From Gemmobacter serpentinus (GTDB lineage: Bacteria > Pseudomonadota > Alphaproteobacteria > Rhodobacterales > Rhodobacteraceae), in the NCBI RefSeq assembly GCF_008973825.1, contig NZ_WCHR01000007.1, positions 124,001 to 188,000 of the forward strand: a stretch of DNA of 64,000 bases, in the 5' to 3' direction. Both the position numbers and the translations under genes were made by a program. Below, piece by piece: positions 8,308 to 17,425 of the stretch. Every line of letters starts with the position of its first letter. The stretch's first letter is position 1. The notes beneath the pieces were generated by a model. That model saw nothing but the letters and a program-made list of their open reading frames with translations, was not told the origin of the DNA and made no database searches.

Positions 8308-9813
8308 TCAGAGAAACCAGTCCCTGAACTGGTCGCGCAGCAGGTTCTTTTGCACCTTGCCCATCGTATTCCGCGGCAGCTCTGCCAGGATCACCGCGCC
8401 TTTGGGCTGCTTGAACCGCGCGACCCGGTCCTGCAACGCCGCCAGCACATTTTCTGGCTGTAGCTCGGCACCCTTTTGCGGGACCAGCACAGCAAAGACT
8501 GCCTCGCCGAAATCGGGATGCGGCAGGCCGATCACCGCGCTTTCCAAGACACCCGGCACCTCGTCCAGCAGCAGCTCCAGCTCCTTGGGGTAGATGTTGA
8601 ACCCGCCAGAAATCACCAGGTCCTTGGCGCGCCCGACGATGGTCACATAGCCTTTCGCATCGACCTGCCCCAGATCGCCAGTGATGAACCAGCCATCGGC
8701 GCGCAACTCCTCGCGGGTTTTATCGGGCATCTGCCAATAGCCCTTGAAGACATTGGGGCCGCGCACTTCGATCACGCCGACATCGCCGGGCGCAACCTCT
8801 GCCTCGCCCTTCATCACGCGCAGCTCCACCCCCGGCAGGGGCTGCCCGACGGTGCCCGCCCGGCGGTCGCCATCATAGGGGTTGGAGGTGTTCATATTGG
8901 TCTCGGTCATGCCATAGCGTTCCAGAATGCGCTGTCCGGTTCGCGCTTCGAAATCGCGATGGGTCTCGGCCAGAAGCGGTGCCGAGCCAGAGATGAACAA
9001 CCGCATATGCCCGACCAGATCGCGGTCCAGCCGGGGATCATCCAGCAGCCTTGTGTAGAAGGTCGGCACGCCCATCATCGTGGTGGCCTGCGGCAACAGC
9101 CGCAGCACCGCTTCCAGATCGAAGCCCGGCAGGAAGATCATCCGCCCGCCCGTCAGCAGGCAAAGGTTGCTGGCGACAAACAGCCCATGGGTGTGGAAGA
9201 TTGGCAGGGCGTGCAGCAGCACATCGCGCCTCGTGAAGCGCCAGGCCGAGCGCAACACCTCGGCATTGGACAGCAGATTGCCATGGGTCAGCATCGCACC
9301 CTTGGATCGCCCCGTCGTGCCCGATGTATACAGGAGGGCCGCAAGATCATCCGGCCCGCATTTGGCGGGCGTGATGGTATCCGGCTGGCTTCGTGCAGCG
9401 ACCGCCAGACTGCCGCTGCCATCGCTGTTCAGCGTCAGCAGTTGCGCCCCATGGCGCGCCGCAACCGGGGCCAGCGCATCAGCCTTGGCTCCATCACAGA
9501 GAAAGACCTTGGGGGTCGCATTGCCTAGAAAATAATCGACCTCATCTGCCGTATAGGCGGTGTTCAGCGGCAGGAAGACCGCACCAAGCGCCAATGCCGC
9601 CCCATATGTCGCCAGCGCCTCGGGGCTTTTGGCAATCTGAACCGCGATGCGATCGCCCTGCCCCAGCCCCGCCGCGCGCAGCGCATGGGCCTGCCGTGCC
9701 ACCATGCCCAGGAAATCACGGCCGGATATCTCGCGCCCATCTGCCAGGATCAGCAAGGTATCCTTTCGCTTGGCAAGCGGCGCAAACAGGGAATCGAACA
9801 GGGTATTGGCCAT
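8308..9813 (-). CDS. matB: Malonyl-CoA synthetase-type acyl-CoA ligase
   Basis: A 501-residue ANL-superfamily enzyme that activates a carboxylate with ATP and CoA; overall sequence is closest to malonyl/methylmalonyl-CoA synthetase (MatB). Motifs in order: the P-loop YTSGTTGRSKGAMLTH, ERYGMTETNM, the hinge region WFITGDLGQVDAKGY, VISGGFNIYPKELE, and the C-terminal catalytic lysine in PRNTMGKVQKN. The ATG at 9813 has GGAGG five bases upstream, so a longer in-frame extension is rejected. No decarboxylase or transporter (matA/matC) is adjacent. Malonate as substrate is likely but not proven. Confidence 0.85.
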   Translation of the reverse strand: MANTLFDSLFAPLAKRKDTLLILADGREISGRDFLGMVARQAHALRAAGLGQGDRIAVQIAKSPEALATYGAALALGAVFLPLNTAYTADEVDYFLGNATPKVFLCDGAKADALAPVAARHGAQLLTLNSDGSGSLAVAARSQPDTITPAKCGPDDLAALLYTSGTTGRSKGAMLTHGNLLSNAEVLRSAWRFTRRDVLLHALPIFHTHGLFVASNLCLLTGGRMIFLPGFDLEAVLRLLPQATTMMGVPTFYTRLLDDPRLDRDLVGHMRLFISGSAPLLAETHRDFEARTGQRILERYGMTETNMNTSNPYDGDRRAGTVGQPLPGVELRVMKGEAEVAPGDVGVIEVRGPNVFKGYWQMPDKTREELRADGWFITGDLGQVDAKGYVTIVGRAKDLVISGGFNIYPKELELLLDEVPGVLESAVIGLPHPDFGEAVFAVLVPQKGAELQPENVLAALQDRVARFKQPKGAVILAELPRNTMGKVQKNLLRDQFRDWFL

Positions 9814-10121
9814 GGCAACCTCCGCTATTGCCCCTTCCTGACACGCGCCCGGCCCTGCCTCAAGGCTATGGTCCCAAGAAGTCTCTGCCCCAAGAGGACC
9901 CTGCACCAAGGGCCGGTCCGCAGGCGCTGGCCCCAGAGCCTCGCCCAAGATCCCGGCCTATGTCCAGATCCGGGCCCGCGAATGCAATTGCCTAAAATCG
10001 CCGCGAAACCATCCAGATGCTTGCACCGCATTGCCGCAATTTTGCCGCGCTTCACCGCCAGCCTCAGATTACATATCCGAGGGCAAGACTATCCGCCCCC
10101 GGCCATTCAGGGAGAAGCCCA
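9814..10121. other. 308-bp gene-free stretch
   Basis: Upstream region shared by the malonyl-CoA synthetase gene (minus) and the small gene at 10122 (plus). It must hold both promoters; I see no clear palindrome, RNA gene or convincing promoter boxes. GC-rich at the left and noticeably more A/T-rich from 9990 to 10090. Confidence 0.5.
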
Positions 10122-10289
10122 ATGACCTTCGTGACCCGCCTGCTGGCAAAATTCCGCAAGACTGCTGCAGTTGAACCCCTGTCCGAAGATGACATCTTTG
10201 CGCTGCGTCTCAGCAAGATGCAGGGCCGCGCCCGTCTGGCGCAACAGGGCTCGCCGTTCAAAAACCACCGGACACAGCCGGCAGCCTGA
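10122..10289 (+). CDS. Small conserved-looking protein, 55 residues
   Basis: Function not recognised. The ATG has GGGAGA eight bases upstream. The product is basic and soluble, beginning MTFVTRLLAKFRK (amphipathic, basic) and containing LSEDDIFALRLSKMQGRARLAQQG. Its 3' end overlaps the 3' end of the opposing mipZ gene by 32 bp. Good ribosome site and codon use support a real gene; the amphipathic N-terminus could associate with membrane. Confidence 0.6.
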   Translation: MTFVTRLLAKFRKTAAVEPLSEDDIFALRLSKMQGRARLAQQGSPFKNHRTQPAA

Positions 10290-11067
10290 GTTCCGCCATC
10301 AGGTCGCGCAACTCTTGCCGCGCGGCGATATTGGACAGGTTCAGCTGCTCGACGCCTGTATCCTTGAGATCCAGCAGCGTCAGCCCGCGCGGGAACAATT
10401 CGCGGAAGATCACGCGCTCGGTAAAGCCGGGCGCGACACGAAAGCCGATCCGCCGCGACAGATCTTCCAGCGCCGCCCCCACCTTCTTCTTGTTGTGCAT
10501 CTGCTGCGCGCCCAGACGGTTGCGCAGCACGATCCAGTCGATCGGCTTCAACCCGGCCTGCGCCCGCGCCTGACGCGCCGCCCAGACCATTTCCGAATAG
10601 ATCGACGGACCCTGCACCTTGTTGGTTTCCGGATCGATCCGCGCCAGCAGATCAAAATCCACAAAACTGTCATTCAGCGGCGTGATCAGCGTATCCGCCA
10701 GACTATGCGCCACCTGGCTGAGCCGGGTATGCGAGCCGGGGCAGTCGATCACGATGAAATCGCTTTGCTTTTCCAGTGTCGAAATCGCGGCTGACAAGCG
10801 ATGGTCGAACAGGTTTTCGCCCGCTGGAATGCTGGCCGGGTCCAGTTCCGGCAATTCGCGGTAATCGGGGCTGGGCAGCTCGCGCCCGTTGCGCGCCATC
10901 CAGGCCCGACGATTTTCCACATAGCGGCCAAAGCTGCGTTGGCGCAGATCAAGGTCCAGCGCGCCGACGGAATGGCCCATCCGCACCAGCGCCGTCGCAA
11001 CATGCATACAGGTGGTCGATTTGCCCGACCCGCCCTTTTCGTTGCCGACAACGATGATATGCGCCAT
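10258..11067 (-). CDS. mipZ: Division-plane positioning ATPase MipZ
   Basis: A 269-residue ParA-superfamily ATPase. The deviant Walker A VVGNEKGGSGKSTT at the N-terminus, LDLDLRQRSFGRYVENR (typical of MipZ rather than ParA) and the Walker B-like FIVIDCPG are visible. In Caulobacter MipZ forms a bipolar gradient from ParB and blocks FtsZ near the poles; the same is inferred here. It is not next to parAB, which is usual. Confidence 0.92.
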   Translation of the reverse strand: MAHIIVVGNEKGGSGKSTTCMHVATALVRMGHSVGALDLDLRQRSFGRYVENRRAWMARNGRELPSPDYRELPELDPASIPAGENLFDHRLSAAISTLEKQSDFIVIDCPGSHTRLSQVAHSLADTLITPLNDSFVDFDLLARIDPETNKVQGPSIYSEMVWAARQARAQAGLKPIDWIVLRNRLGAQQMHNKKKVGAALEDLSRRIGFRVAPGFTERVIFRELFPRGLTLLDLKDTGVEQLNLSNIAARQELRDLMAELRLPAVSGGF

Positions 11068-13117: not shown

Positions 13118-13921
13118 TCAGTCCTGCGTCTCCAGCCAGTCGCGGAAGGCATCCACCACCTCGGCCTCGCTGTCCACCAGATATTGCGGTGCGGGATAAA
13201 GGCCTTCATGCACGTCGTCGACAAAATGGCGCATGGCCGCGATCCGCATTTGCTGCAGCCGGGCGTGCTCGGCCGCAAAATCGGCATAGACCTTGGCATG
13301 GCGCGGCACATGGCCGGTGTTCTGGCCCAGCACGTCATCGCTGAACAGATATTGTGCGTGCCCCGCAGCCCCTGCCCCCATGGAAATCAGAAACAGCCCT
13401 GTGCGTTCGGCAATCAGCCGGGTGATGGATTGCGGCACCACCTCGATCTCCACCGCGAATGCCCCGGCCTGTTCCAGCGCGCGGCATTGCTGCCAGACCA
13501 GCTGCGCGGTCTCCAGCGTCTTGCCGACGGCCTTGAAGCCGCCGGTCCAGGTGCGCTTGGACGGGATCAGCCCGACATGGCCGCAGACCGGAATGCCATG
13601 ATCGGCCAGCGCCCGCACCGTGCCCAGCGAGCCGGAACAGTAAACGGCATCCGCGCCCACCTTCATCAGCGGAAAGGCCCAGCTCAGAAAGACCGCTGTA
13701 TCGCCGATCTCGTAGTAGTTTTCGCCTGGCATGGCGAAGGCTGTGGGCGCAACCTCGCGAAAGCGCGGATCACAGATCAGCGCGGGCGGAACCGACAGCA
13801 GCTCCACCCCTGCTCGCTCGGCCGCCTCGGCCTCGGCCAAGGTTTCGACCCGCAACATGGCGAAGCTGTGCTTGCCCCGCGCGTCCAGCAGATCGCGGAC
13901 GGTCAGACGTTTGCCCATCAT
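13118..13921 (-). CDS. PanB-like (ketopantoate hydroxymethyltransferase superfamily) protein, divergent
   Basis: A 267-residue TIM-barrel protein of the PanB/isocitrate-lyase superfamily. Segments GIPVCGHVGLIPSK, GGFKAVGKT and AVEIEVVPQSIT match PanB well, and the glutamate of EIEVVP (catalytic in PanB) is present. But the metal-binding positions are altered: the VGDS block reads SVPP and the K-x-E-GG block reads MKVGADAVY. So it probably does not make ketopantoate. Its ATG overlaps the ferredoxin stop by 4 bp, making it the third gene of desaturase-ferredoxin-PanB-like. A role in the same catabolic pathway is inferred. Confidence 0.75.
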   Translation of the reverse strand: MMGKRLTVRDLLDARGKHSFAMLRVETLAEAEAAERAGVELLSVPPALICDPRFREVAPTAFAMPGENYYEIGDTAVFLSWAFPLMKVGADAVYCSGSLGTVRALADHGIPVCGHVGLIPSKRTWTGGFKAVGKTLETAQLVWQQCRALEQAGAFAVEIEVVPQSITRLIAERTGLFLISMGAGAAGHAQYLFSDDVLGQNTGHVPRHAKVYADFAAEHARLQQMRIAAMRHFVDDVHEGLYPAPQYLVDSEAEVVDAFRDWLETQD

Positions 13922-14232
13922 GGCACCTCGATGAAGACCGCGCCCGCCTCGACCCGGATCGGATAGGTGCGCAGGTTGACACAGACCGGCGCGCGCTTCG
14001 CCTCGCCGGTGCGATAATCGAACTGGCCGTTATGCTTGGGGCATTCGACCAGATGACCCATCACCAGCCCGTCGCAGAGATGCACATCCTCATGGGTGCA
14101 TTTGCCGGCGGTGGCGAAGAAATCGCCTTCTGGGGAATGATAGATGGCATAGGTCTCCCCGGCATGATCGAAGCGGATCAGATCCTCTTCATCGACATCA
14201 TCGGTGGCGCAGGCGCGAATCCATTGGCTCAT
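13918..14232 (-). CDS. Rieske-type [2Fe-2S] ferredoxin, MocE-like
   Basis: A 104-residue soluble Rieske protein. Cluster ligands are visible as CTH (residues about 43-45) and CPKH (about 64-67), in the context GKCTHEDVHLCDG and VECPKHNGQFDYRTGEAKRAP. It would pass electrons to the adjacent membrane desaturase/oxygenase. This pair corresponds to MocE and MocD of Sinorhizobium rhizopine catabolism. The separate reductase (MocF) is not in the window. Confidence 0.88.
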   Translation of the reverse strand: MSQWIRACATDDVDEEDLIRFDHAGETYAIYHSPEGDFFATAGKCTHEDVHLCDGLVMGHLVECPKHNGQFDYRTGEAKRAPVCVNLRTYPIRVEAGAVFIEVP

Positions 14233-14241
14233 TTTTCGTCC

Positions 14242-15336
14242 TCATTCGGCTGGGATTGCGGTCTCGGGCAGATCACCCAAAGCGGCGCGGTGGAAATCCT
14301 CGCGATAGGGCTTGGCCCCTTCGGGCAGTTCGCGGCGCAGGAAGTAATCCTCGTAGCGCAGCTGGCGGCGTAGGGCGGGCCACATCTCGGCAAAGCCTGC
14401 GGCGATCGATGGGTTGGGCGCGGGCAGATCGTGCTTGATCGCATCATGCAGGCGCGGCAGCGCGTGATAGGGCACCATCGGGAACATGTGATGCTCCACA
14501 TGGTAATTCATGTTCCAATACACGAAGCGGCTGATCGGGTTCATATAGACGGTGCGCGAGTTCAGCCGATGGTCGATCACATTATCGGCCAGCCCCCCGT
14601 GTTGCAGCAGGCCGGTCATCACATGATGCCAGGCACCGTAGAGCCGGGGCAGACCGATCACCATCAAGGGCAGGATGGAGCCAAGCCAGATCGCCAGCGC
14701 CAAGGTGGCCAGATAGATCGCCATATGGATGCGGGCCACGCGGGCAACCTTGCCCCATTCGCTTTGCGGCACGAAGGTCTTCTCTTCCGTGGTGGGGCCA
14801 AGCACCGCGTTATAGGCCAGACGCGGCAGGGCGGCGGCGACATCGAAGACGCCAAAGAAGTTCAGGATCAGCTTGAAGAAGGCCGGGGGCCGCATCACCG
14901 CAATTTCGGGGTCACGCCCGACGATATAGGTGTCGGTATGGTGGCGGGCATGGCTCCAGCGCCAGGTGGCAGAGTTGCGCATGATCATGAAGGACGCGAT
15001 CTCGTAGACCGCGTTGTTCATCCAGGCGGTGCGAAAGGCCGTGCCATGGCCGCATTCGTGCCAACGCGAATCCGAGGCCGAGCCATACAGCACGCCATAA
15101 GCGAGCCATGCCGGGATCGTCCAGAACGAGGGCCAGAAGGCGATGCCAATGCCAGCCAGAACCACCATCGACCCCAGCCAGATCACCGTATCGCGGATCG
15201 CAGGCTGGTCGCTGCGCTGCATCAACTCCTTCATCACCTTGCGCGGCACTTCGGTGTGATACCACTCTGCCGCCGCAAGGCCGGTCTCGACAGCGCGTGC
15301 CCCATCCGGCCCCAACAGACTGTAATCGCGTTTCAT
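14242..15336 (-). CDS. Fatty-acid-desaturase-fold membrane oxygenase, MocD-like
   Basis: A 364-residue integral membrane di-iron enzyme. Three histidine boxes are present: HECGH, HARHH and the C-terminal NYHVEHH, with an additional HHVMTG between. Two hydrophobic stretches precede box 1 (residues about 50-90). The fold covers fatty-acyl desaturases and alkane/methyl hydroxylases. With the Rieske ferredoxin it matches the MocDE demethylase pair. It is the first gene of a three-gene minus-strand unit, divergent from a LacI regulator. The substrate is inferred from context only. Confidence 0.85.
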   Translation of the reverse strand: MKRDYSLLGPDGARAVETGLAAAEWYHTEVPRKVMKELMQRSDQPAIRDTVIWLGSMVVLAGIGIAFWPSFWTIPAWLAYGVLYGSASDSRWHECGHGTAFRTAWMNNAVYEIASFMIMRNSATWRWSHARHHTDTYIVGRDPEIAVMRPPAFFKLILNFFGVFDVAAALPRLAYNAVLGPTTEEKTFVPQSEWGKVARVARIHMAIYLATLALAIWLGSILPLMVIGLPRLYGAWHHVMTGLLQHGGLADNVIDHRLNSRTVYMNPISRFVYWNMNYHVEHHMFPMVPYHALPRLHDAIKHDLPAPNPSIAAGFAEMWPALRRQLRYEDYFLRRELPEGAKPYREDFHRAALGDLPETAIPAE

Positions 15337-15381
15337 ATCCGGCCCTTTCCGTCTTGCATCCCGTCCTGTTCAGATCGGGGC

Positions 15382-15456
15382 TTGACGAAAATAGAACATC
15401 CTTTCCATTTCTCGTGTAGACAGGGGGCGCGAGGTTTTCGTCAAATCTCGTCAAAT
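15382..15456. promoter_or_regulatory. Operator-like repeats in divergent promoter region
   Basis: Between the desaturase and LacI starts, TTGACGAAAA (15382-15391) is matched by its perfect inverse TTTTCGTCAA (15435-15444), and the half-site CGTCAAAT repeats directly at 15439-15446 and 15449-15456, one helical turn apart. On the minus strand a TTGACG...TCTACA pair with 18-bp spacing could be the desaturase promoter. Likely target of the LacI regulator. Confidence 0.5.
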
Positions 15457-15472
15457 TCAACGGGAGGGCAGC

Positions 15473-16519
15473 ATGGCACGGCGGGCAGGCATGGCAGAAT
15501 TGGCAGCGGCTGCGGGGGTTTCTGTCGCGACCGTCGACAGGGCGCTGAACGGGCGCGAGGCGGTGGCGGGCGACACCCGCGCCCGCATCGCCGAGGCGGC
15601 GCAACGCATCGGCCACCCTGCCGCCTGGCGGCTGTCGGGCCATGCCCCGGGGCCCGCCCTGCGAGAGCTGTGCTTTGGTGTGGTGCTGCACAAGCAGGGG
15701 CAGGATTTCTACAAGGCCTTTGCCGAAGAACTGCACCGCGCGGTCACGCTTGTGCCGGGGGTGAAGGCACGCCTGATGCTGGAATTTTCCAGTTCGCAAT
15801 CCCCGTCCGAGATGGCCGCCGCACTCCGCGCCATGGCCGGGCGCTGCGACGTGCTGGCGGCAACGGCAGTCAACCACCCCGAAGTGACCGCCGCAGTTGA
15901 GGAATTGCGCGGCCGGGGCCTGCGGATCATCTCGTTGCTGTCGGAATTTGGACAGGGCTTTCGCGCCGGTTACGTTGGCCTGAACAACCTGAAAATCGGT
16001 CGCAGCGCCGGCTGGATCACCGCGCTTTCGGCGCGGGGGCCCGGCAAGGTCATGCTGTTTGTCGGCGGCCATCGCTGGCATGGGCATGAGCTGCGCGAGA
16101 CTGGTTTTCGCAGCTATCTGCGCGAGACCGCGCCGCAGCTCGAGGTGATGGAAACCTGCGTCAACCTGGAGACGCGGCAACTGACCTATGATGCCGCCCG
16201 CACGGCACTGGCGCGTCATCCCGATTTGCGCGGCATCTATGTCGCGGGCGGCGGAATGGAGGGAGCGATTGCCGCGCTGCGTGAAGCCCGCCCGCCCGGT
16301 GCCGTGGTGCTGACAGTTTCCGCGCTCACGCCCGAATCGCGGCGCGGCTTGGCTGAGGGCGTGGTGACACTGGTCACCGACACGCCGCTGGAAAAGCTGT
16401 GCCGCACGCTTTTCGATCAGATGGTGATGCTCTGCACCCCGCGCCCCGGCATCGCGGCGTCAGAGGATATCGGCCAGATCTTCCTGCCCCCCGATCTGCA
16501 TATCGCGGAATCGATCTGA
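15473..16519 (+). CDS. LacI-family transcriptional regulator
   Basis: A 348-residue repressor. The N-terminal HTH MAELAAAAGVSVATVDRALNG and RIAEAAQRIGH is LacI-type; the rest is a periplasmic-binding-protein-like ligand domain (about residues 65-340) that would bind a sugar or cyclitol. The GGGAGG before the ATG is strong. It is divergent from the desaturase unit and is followed 100 bp later by an IolI-like isomerase on the same strand, so it probably controls both. Confidence 0.9.
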   Translation: MARRAGMAELAAAAGVSVATVDRALNGREAVAGDTRARIAEAAQRIGHPAAWRLSGHAPGPALRELCFGVVLHKQGQDFYKAFAEELHRAVTLVPGVKARLMLEFSSSQSPSEMAAALRAMAGRCDVLAATAVNHPEVTAAVEELRGRGLRIISLLSEFGQGFRAGYVGLNNLKIGRSAGWITALSARGPGKVMLFVGGHRWHGHELRETGFRSYLRETAPQLEVMETCVNLETRQLTYDAARTALARHPDLRGIYVAGGGMEGAIAALREARPPGAVVLTVSALTPESRRGLAEGVVTLVTDTPLEKLCRTLFDQMVMLCTPRPGIAASEDIGQIFLPPDLHIAESI

Positions 16520-16618
16520 CGAGATTCCATCAACGCCGTGACATAGATATTGCGCCAGGCGCGCAATGGAATAAACATTCCAAATCTCTTCTGCCCAAAT
16601 CATCCCGCAAGGATTCCC

Positions 16619-17425
16619 ATGCCGCCCTTCGCCCTGAACCACATGACCGCGCCCGGCACCGACTGGCGCGCCTTCGCCGATCTGGCCGCAGGGCTTGGCT
16701 GCGTCGGCGTTGAATACCGCAATGACCTGAACGGCCCGCTGTTCGGTGGCGATGCGCCCGAGGATGTGGGGGCGGCTTTGCGCGCCAGGGGCCTGCGTTT
16801 CCTCGCCTTGGCCGAGGTCAAGATGTTCAATGACTGGTCCGATACCAAGGCGGCAGAGGCTGAGGCGCTGATGCAGATCGCGTCCCGCGCAGGTGCCGAG
16901 GCCGTCAGCCTGATCCCGCGCAATGATGGTGTGGCCACCGACCGCGCGGGCAGCCGCCGTGTGACCGAAACCGCGCTGCGCGAGGTGCTGCCGATGCTGA
17001 AGGCCCATGGCCTGAACGCCATGGTAGAACCCTTGGGCTTTGCCGTCTGTTCGCTGCGCTACAAGGATGTGCTGGCTGATTGCATCGATGCCGTGGGCGG
17101 CGAAGGCACGCTTTTCATGGTGCATGACACCTTCCACCACCATCTGGCGGGCGGCGGCGCGATCTTCCCCGATCTGACCGGCATCGTGCATGTGTCGGGC
17201 GTGACCGCCCCGGTCCATGTCGATGACATGCGCGATCCGCATCGGGTGCTGGTCGATGCCGATGACCAGCTGGGCAATGTGGCGCAGATCCGCGCGCTGC
17301 GCCGGGGCGGCTATCGCGGCCCGATCAGCTATGAGCCCTTCGCGCCCGAGGTCCACGCCCTGTGCGACCATGCGCCTGCGCTGCAAGCCTCGATGCAGTT
17401 CATCGCGGCCGGGGTGGCCGGTTAA
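16619..17425 (+). CDS. IolI/MocC-like sugar-phosphate or inosose isomerase (TIM barrel)
   Basis: A 268-residue xylose-isomerase-like TIM barrel. Metal-site residues fit the IolI pattern: the glutamate in MVEPLGF, the HDTFHHH motif, and the C-terminal SYEPFAPEV. The order HDTFHHH ... VHVSGV ... PISYEPF parallels 2-keto-myo-inositol isomerase (IolI) and MocC. AAGGA precedes the ATG at 16619. It lies 100 bp after the LacI gene. Hydroxypyruvate isomerase is the alternative, but context favours a cyclitol. Confidence 0.78.
   Translation: MPPFALNHMTAPGTDWRAFADLAAGLGCVGVEYRNDLNGPLFGGDAPEDVGAALRARGLRFLALAEVKMFNDWSDTKAAEAEALMQIASRAGAEAVSLIPRNDGVATDRAGSRRVTETALREVLPMLKAHGLNAMVEPLGFAVCSLRYKDVLADCIDAVGGEGTLFMVHDTFHHHLAGGGAIFPDLTGIVHVSGVTAPVHVDDMRDPHRVLVDADDQLGNVAQIRALRRGGYRGPISYEPFAPEVHALCDHAPALQASMQFIAAGVAG

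Follow-up and report, generated by a model that had tools for sequence, protein, structure and literature searches.

The five-gene cluster analysed here lies in Gemmobacter serpentinus, within a 64-kb stretch of DNA (the window; contig positions 124001-188000 of a 4.26-Mb genome), and all five genes are present as open frames, on the strands and at the places that an earlier note on this DNA had claimed. They form two divergent units. The minus-strand unit reads from a MocD-like membrane di-iron oxygenase of the FA_desaturase family (14242..15336; PF00487), through a MocE-family Rieske [2Fe-2S] ferredoxin (13918..14232; TIGR02377, 164.6 bits vs. a cut-off of 136), to a PanB-like protein of 267 residues, hereafter PanBL (13118..13921), whose match to PF02548 is partial (125 bits, residues 79-244 only). 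On the plus strand, a LacI/GalR regulator with a sugar-binding-protein-like ligand domain (15473..16519; PF00356 and PF13407, Peripla_BP_4) occupies a FixV-like position and is followed by a xylose-isomerase-like triosephosphate-isomerase (TIM) barrel, a putative inosose isomerase or epimerase (16619..17425; PF01261), for which we chose the ATG at 16619; a longer TTG frame from 16550 is also listed. The 136-bp intergenic region between the units (15337..15472) is the proposed operator and promoter region for both. The cluster is flanked by rplS and ade (adenine deaminase), with an EamA transporter as a further neighbour, and no MocA, MocB or MocC gene adjoins it.

The window thus contains tandem MocD and MocE homologues. 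The desaturase histidine boxes (H93/H97, H129/H132/H133 and H279/H282/H283) are invariant across 18 aligned rows including the window, and the Rieske ligands of the ferredoxin are C45/H47 and C64/H67. The earlier note had called the cluster Moc/Iol-like, and comparison with the moc locus of Sinorhizobium meliloti (L113) bears this out, with identities of 70-75% for the desaturase (in two tblastn pieces), 63% for the ferredoxin and 56% for PanBL. The 9-bp gap between desaturase and ferredoxin and the 4-bp overlap between ferredoxin and PanBL leave no room for a MocF reductase inside the unit, whose absence had been noted correctly; the best MocF-like match in the genome is on another contig and 41% identical. 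The AlkB-AlkG structure 8f6t, third fold match of the predicted desaturase model (E 0.03), was not used.

A genome_contigs scan returned 513 PanBL relatives; the analysis used the 80 best loci among them, so that the sample is not unbiased; gene presence was counted with blast probes because automatic gene calling errs in such high-GC DNA. The 80 loci belong to Rhodobacterales (64), Hyphomicrobiales (12) and Burkholderiales (1), with three unassigned; one Burkholderiales metagenome-assembled genome (L108) carries the unit. Cultured relatives bearing the cluster include Rhodobacter amnigenus (L034) and Tabrizicola aquatica (L058). All four other genes occur in the same orientation in 64/80 loci, and in 62/68 of those whose left flank reaches 4.2 kb or more. 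Since this block recurs while the flanking rplS and ade are each found near PanBL in 0/80 loci, the association is not a chance one, and gene order, whose loss in relatives would have told against the earlier note, is conserved. Of the 80 loci, 65 have a MocB-like binding protein, 65 a permease and 66 an ATPase no more than 8.5 kb away. MocF stands between MocE and PanBL in 12/80 (11 of the 12 Hyphomicrobiales and Sphaerotilus, the single Burkholderiales locus) and in none of the 64 Rhodobacterales loci, among which only L084 bears a MocF at all, placed after PanBL and accompanied by FolD and PurU. In that same locus, a PanB-like stretch (L084:8001-8774) is interrupted by a stop in the given frame.

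Beyond these loci the distribution of PanBL is patchy. Matches at E <= 1e-100 occur in 12 of 295 Rhodobacteraceae genomes, our own included, and matches at E <= 1e-30 in 65 of them, several genomes reaching four to six at E <= 0.001 with true PanB counted. In a phylum-wide sample of 398 genomes, 35 match the PanBL profile at E <= 1e-30; all those at E <= 1e-37 belong to the same class as the window. Weaker matches, only part of which were inspected, lie at the level that true PanB gives.

The rhizobial loci show where PanBL belongs. The rhizopine catabolic locus of Sinorhizobium/Rhizobium is described, in the text available from the two sources, as mocCABRDEF (PMC10107442, PMC6668481), and the same portion of the first gives a MocR box motif with a 13-bp pair spacing and a rhizopine-inducible mocD promoter (PMC10107442). 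L113 encodes iolE-like, Gfo/Idh, binding-protein and pyridoxal-phosphate-dependent (MocR-type) genes, and has a perfect MocR box pair at 13-bp spacing before the desaturase, with weaker pairs before the binding protein (3 mismatches) and the iolE-like gene (2 mismatches). A pair also precedes the desaturase in Rhizobium lentis (L289, 2 mismatches), Rhizobium leguminosarum (L290, 2) and Phyllobacterium (L291, 1). Boxes counted singly, with 2 mismatches allowed, barely exceed chance (24 vs. 19.8 expected); it is the spaced pair that is informative. In all four loci, from four species and three genera, the order is MocR-type gene, mocD, mocE, mocF, PanBL, purU, the continuation of mocF into PanBL and purU being seen in L113:10728-13739, L289:10199-13212, L290:10199-13207 and L291:10282-13297. 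This colinearity places PanBL and purU in the moc-type unit and overturns the claim that the PanB-like protein has no moc counterpart; the open-licence literature text searched, figures not covered, contained no mention of PanBL in moc loci. The mocD-like desaturase of L113 (9245-10287) is itself unannotated and split between two frames (9245-9466 and 9469-10287); L289-L291 each have it as a single open frame. NF052284, the 'rhizopine' binding protein model, was rejected for recognising true moc loci, and the published boxes were used instead: the L113 binding protein scores 45 bits vs. a cut-off of 420, seven 20-kb stretches around the best NF052284 matches (L281-L287) contain no MocD, MocE or PanBL, and the name may be misplaced.

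A second group of rhizobial loci is closer to the window in its regulator. In the accessible text of PMC3538637, mocDEF in Mesorhizobium/Rhizobium is accompanied by LacI regulators of the FixV type and an epimerase of PF01261 (Msi119), with an inositol derivative suggested as ligand of the regulators. This published LacI/epimerase/mocDEF arrangement means that the pathway is not wholly undescribed, as had been supposed, and that the window cluster is a MocF-less relative of the FixV-epimerase-mocDEF clusters; the same text, figures not covered, has no occurrence of panB, hydroxymethyltransferase or folD. The LacI of the window is 45-47% identical to those of the rhizobial clusters L114-L116, and its TIM barrel 44-51% identical to those of L115 and L116, FixV and Msi119 themselves lying outside this comparison. 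No moc-box pair was found in L114, L115 or L116 with up to 3 mismatches, or anywhere in the 64-kb window with up to 4. In L114 and L116 the unit continues into purU and folD, whereas in L115 iolG follows PanBL and purU/folD lie on the other arm; iolG adjoins the cluster at L103 as well. Where available, the text of a study of Rhizobium mesoamericanum reports mocDEF up 1.5-2.1-fold with Mimosa exudate, of which pinitol was the most concentrated component (PMC5789663).

Is PanBL a PanB? Its relatives are automatically annotated as 3-methyl-2-oxobutanoate hydroxymethyltransferase, and the fold is shared: the first 28 Foldseek matches of the AlphaFold2 model (mean predicted local distance difference test score, pLDDT, 85.8) are all ketopantoate hydroxymethyltransferases, followed by petal death protein and 2-methylisocitrate lyases. 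PanBL nevertheless fails the panB models (TIGR00222, 90.8 vs. 207.55 bits; NF001452, 112.7 vs. 272). In a residue alignment of 209 rows (22 true PanB and 187 non-PanB, E. coli numbering, the loop at 45-46 aligned with gaps), every true PanB row keeps D45, S46, D84, K112, E114, H136 and E181. We take D45, D84 and E114 to be the Mg ligands of PanB and, with K112, to have active-site roles. Among the 187 non-PanB rows, E114 is kept in none, D84 in 1, K112 and S46 in 9 each and D45 in 18, as against H136 in 186 and E181 in all 187; K112 is replaced by Y in 167, by F in 6, and by M, I or L in five. The window protein has P, G, S and Y at D45, D84, E114 and K112, respectively. A 172-row table, in which PanBL is defined by Y or F at K112 (L204, a Y/F row keeping D84, was omitted), shows that the positions conserved above 95% here and different or variable in PanB include Y112, E179, H229, R73 and D109, equivalent to Y94, E158, H208, R55 and D91 of the window protein, where Y94, H115, E158, E160 and H208 are invariant in close relatives. 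Judged by its sequence, PanBL is not PanB, its predicted fold being that of PanB rebuilt without the Mg and ketoacid site.

The gene contexts of the wider family suggest what such a protein may do. After removal of identical rows and of fragments below 140 aligned residues, the 80 loci gave 76 orthologue rows, and 92 fetched paralogue loci, chosen by us and not independent, gave 78 rows (68 PanBL, 9 K-bearing and 1 true PanB). A probed oxygenase lies within 4 kb of the PanB-like gene in 73/76 orthologue rows, 47/68 paralogue rows and 5/9 K-bearing rows, its family being FA_desaturase, FA_hydroxylase, ring-hydroxylating Rieske or vanillate O-demethylase (VanA) type, as named from Pfam scans of chosen representatives. 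True PanB rows have none (0/21); eight of these come from 2-kb loci with little flank, and a better control is tblastn over 357 kb (20 true-panB loci and 7 unrelated 20-kb loci), which found no oxygenase, MocE, MocF, PurU or FolD probe match. In a FastTree phylogeny of 107 rows, true PanB forms one clade (support 99) and the VanA-linked rows another (97), and the oxygenase label, with 7 states including 'none' and true PanB, changes 24 times, compared with a minimum of 6 and a shuffled mean of 58. The partners are therefore clustered on the tree, and yet they have changed repeatedly. A partner of four kinds of oxygenase, the vanillate O-demethylase family among them, PanBL would most simply serve the formaldehyde-level carbon that such reactions may share.

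Two other arrangements appeared in the same survey. L132:6212-7794 and L147:6808-8502 carry a tandem pair of PanB-like genes beside oxygenase genes. A second PanB-like class has a VanA-type oxygenase and a DmdA-like GcvT protein as neighbours (L150:5368-9016, L151:5161-8796, L222 and L228). The nine K-bearing rows keep D45, S46 and K112, with Q at E114 and S, C or A at D84; the partner is VanA in all five that have one, and a GcvT-family gene is also present in 4/9, two scanned GcvT proteins scoring 351 and 364 bits, short of the cut-off of 410, on the model for dimethylsulfoniopropionate (DMSP) demethylase. Both scanned members of this class (L150 and L222) pass the panB cut-offs, so that databases may label it PanB.

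From the genes, synteny, residue losses and contexts observed here, we infer the ligand, substrate and catalytic steps of a peripheral module that would catabolise an O-methylated inositol of the pinitol/ononitol class. Homology and context make it very probable that the cluster demethylates an inositol-like compound, and oxidative demethylation of a methylated cyclitol, as first proposed, is still the best reading. LacI would sense the cyclitol or a derivative and control both divergent units. The MocD-like di-iron oxygenase, supplied with electrons through the MocE ferredoxin by a reductase from elsewhere in the genome, would hydroxylate the O-methyl group to a hemiacetal, and PanBL would take the hydroxymethyl or formaldehyde unit to tetrahydrofolate (THF) as 5,10-methylene-THF, which FolD- and PurU-type enzymes could oxidise to formate, the product that PurU releases. 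The TIM barrel might isomerise or epimerise the demethylated inositol or inosose and, with IolG and IolE, deliver it to the iol pathway. The genome holds iolG over cut-off, beside a short-chain dehydrogenase/reductase and a sugar ATP-binding cassette (ABC) transporter with a binding protein sharing 68% identity with the one in L113; iolE, over cut-off, elsewhere; and, about 94 kb from the cluster on its contig, a purU of 75% identity. We infer the THF step from the purU and folD neighbours of relatives. For the combined proposal, in which MocDE O-demethylates methyl-inositol and PanBL loads the one-carbon (C1) unit on THF for FolD and PurU, we judge the balance to be slightly favourable. The wider generalisation falls a little short of an even call, namely that the PanB-like family is a dedicated enzyme moving demethylase-derived formaldehyde or hydroxymethyl hemiacetal to THF, repeatedly recruited next to oxygenases unrelated to one another, chiefly in Alphaproteobacteria, and an overlooked member, with purU, of the rhizopine operon.

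In the text available of PMC7073904, the spontaneous condensation of formaldehyde with THF is judged far too slow for growth, PanB is named as a possible promiscuous catalyst, an uncharacterised enzyme is left possible, and no dedicated formaldehyde-tetrahydrofolate enzyme is named. If our proposal is right, PanBL would be a dedicated enzyme of this kind, and a genomically marked candidate family makes the question testable and would serve C1 biotechnology. Two genes would be added to the rhizopine operon, which serves as a model in engineering plant-microbe signalling, and PanBL would become a searchable marker for O-demethylation modules with unidentified substrates.

Several observations weigh against this proposal. 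Its main weakness lies in the catalytic, folate-dependent step: no folate-binding site could be demonstrated in PanBL, and purU and folD are scarce near the Rhodobacterales loci. Both are missing from the window's cluster (purU is in the four moc loci and L114-L116, and folD in L114-L116), PurU lies near PanBL in 10/80 orthologue loci and FolD in 1/80, and each is found in 1/68 paralogue rows. The residue pattern has its exceptions, since L204, a Y112 row, keeps D84 in the alignment and position 112 is neither K nor Y/F in five non-PanB rows. No probed oxygenase lies within 4 kb in 21/68 paralogue and 4/9 K-bearing rows, and, with the labels clustered on the tree, the 24 changes do not amount to as many free recruitments. 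For the desaturase, the predicted model is poor (pLDDT 71.5) and yielded no fold match under E 0.001; the window cluster lacks a transporter, an inositol dehydrogenase and MocF. Finally, in the available text of PMC7073904, deleting the ordinary panB of E. coli (with ltaE) left formaldehyde assimilation unaffected, though PanBL is a different protein.

Two alternatives retain some weight. In the first, the demethylase module is the same and PanBL is a folate-free aldolase, lyase or hydrolase acting on the carbon skeleton (for instance by a retro-aldol step on an inosose or ring-opened product), with formaldehyde passing to the ordinary glutathione or folate pools. The petal death protein and 2-methylisocitrate lyases next in the Foldseek list, and the absence of PurU and FolD from the window and most Rhodobacterales loci, speak for it; the PanB metal-site residues D84 and E114, however, are lost in 186 and 187 of the 187 rows, purU/folD do adjoin PanBL in the rhizobial loci, and the partner oxygenases, from four Pfam families, have a C1 product in common and not a skeleton. 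We consider this unlikely, at perhaps one chance in four by our own reckoning. In the second, PanBL still handles the C1 unit, and the compound demethylated or hydroxylated is a non-inositol sugar, an amino-cyclitol or an osmolyte. The paralogous modules of Rhodobacteraceae vary in regulators, transporters and dehydrogenases, so the kit probably serves several substrates, and no transporter adjoins the window cluster. Against this, relatives adjoin iolG (L115 and L103), most have sugar ABC genes resembling the moc-locus set (a MocB-like gene in 65/80), and the available text of PMC3538637 links FixV-type clusters to inositol derivatives. We hold a non-inositol substrate to be as doubtful as the carbon-skeleton role.

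The remaining two can be set aside. That PanBL is a second pantothenate enzyme, a ketopantoate-making paralogue hitch-hiking in the cluster, is suggested by its passing the Pfam cut-off for PF02548 and by the automatic annotation of its relatives, but we rejected this as highly improbable given the lost metal and substrate residues, the panB and PRK00311 cut-offs missed widely, and the canonical panB already present on another contig (C12). Equally remote is a lipid-modifying desaturase/ferredoxin pair beside sugar genes by chance, for which the FA_desaturase family and a weak resemblance to NCBIfam DesB (31 bits vs. a cut-off of 500) could be cited, and which we rejected on the synteny and orientation kept with LacI and the TIM barrel (64/80), the 70-75% identity to the moc-locus desaturase and the rhizopine-inducible mocD promoter given in the consulted part of PMC10107442.

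The earlier description of the isomerase as IolI/MocC-like stands as far as the PF01261 TIM barrel goes, but not as to MocC, which we take to be IolE-like: it is the IolE type that occupies the mocC position in moc loci, and no NCBIfam model, TIGR04379/IolE among them, matches the window's TIM barrel. Of the solved structures, 2q02 and 4hgx (E 3e-24) alone are related to this protein at E <= 0.001. By eye, TGACGA-type half-sites or repeats near the LacI start are seen in the window and several Rhodobacteraceae relatives, and the motif ATGGAA-N6-TTCTAT, close to the start of the desaturase, likewise recurs in several; the intergenic region of rhizobial relatives, also viewed by eye, has TGATAGA-like repeats. 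Elsewhere in the window, 10258-11067 (-) encodes a ParA-family ATPase, MipZ-like by eye, whose NF041546 score of 69 bits is below the cut-off of 180.

Set beside PanB, PanBL shares the fold, the C-terminal half of the sequence and the positions H136 and E181, but D45, S46, D84, K112 and E114 are replaced and Y94, E158 and H208 (window numbering) are new near-invariants. The nearest described logic is the purU-mabO-folD operon, a precedent for THF-coupled demethylation followed by FolD and PurU, in the available part of a review that gives formaldehyde as the end product (PMC3891541); there the oxidase itself makes methylene-THF, whereas in the window the oxygenase and the proposed THF-loading protein are separate. 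With the rhizopine moc locus, the window shares the order of MocD-type oxygenase, MocE and PanBL, but it has LacI in place of MocR and lacks the moc box, MocF, adjoining MocA, MocB and MocC, and purU, so that its substrate is probably not rhizopine. With the FixV-Msi119-mocDEF clusters it has in common a LacI/GalR regulator and a PF01261 protein divergent from mocD, and differs in that they have MocF. The type of cluster is thus already in print, and the new element is the analysis of PanBL.

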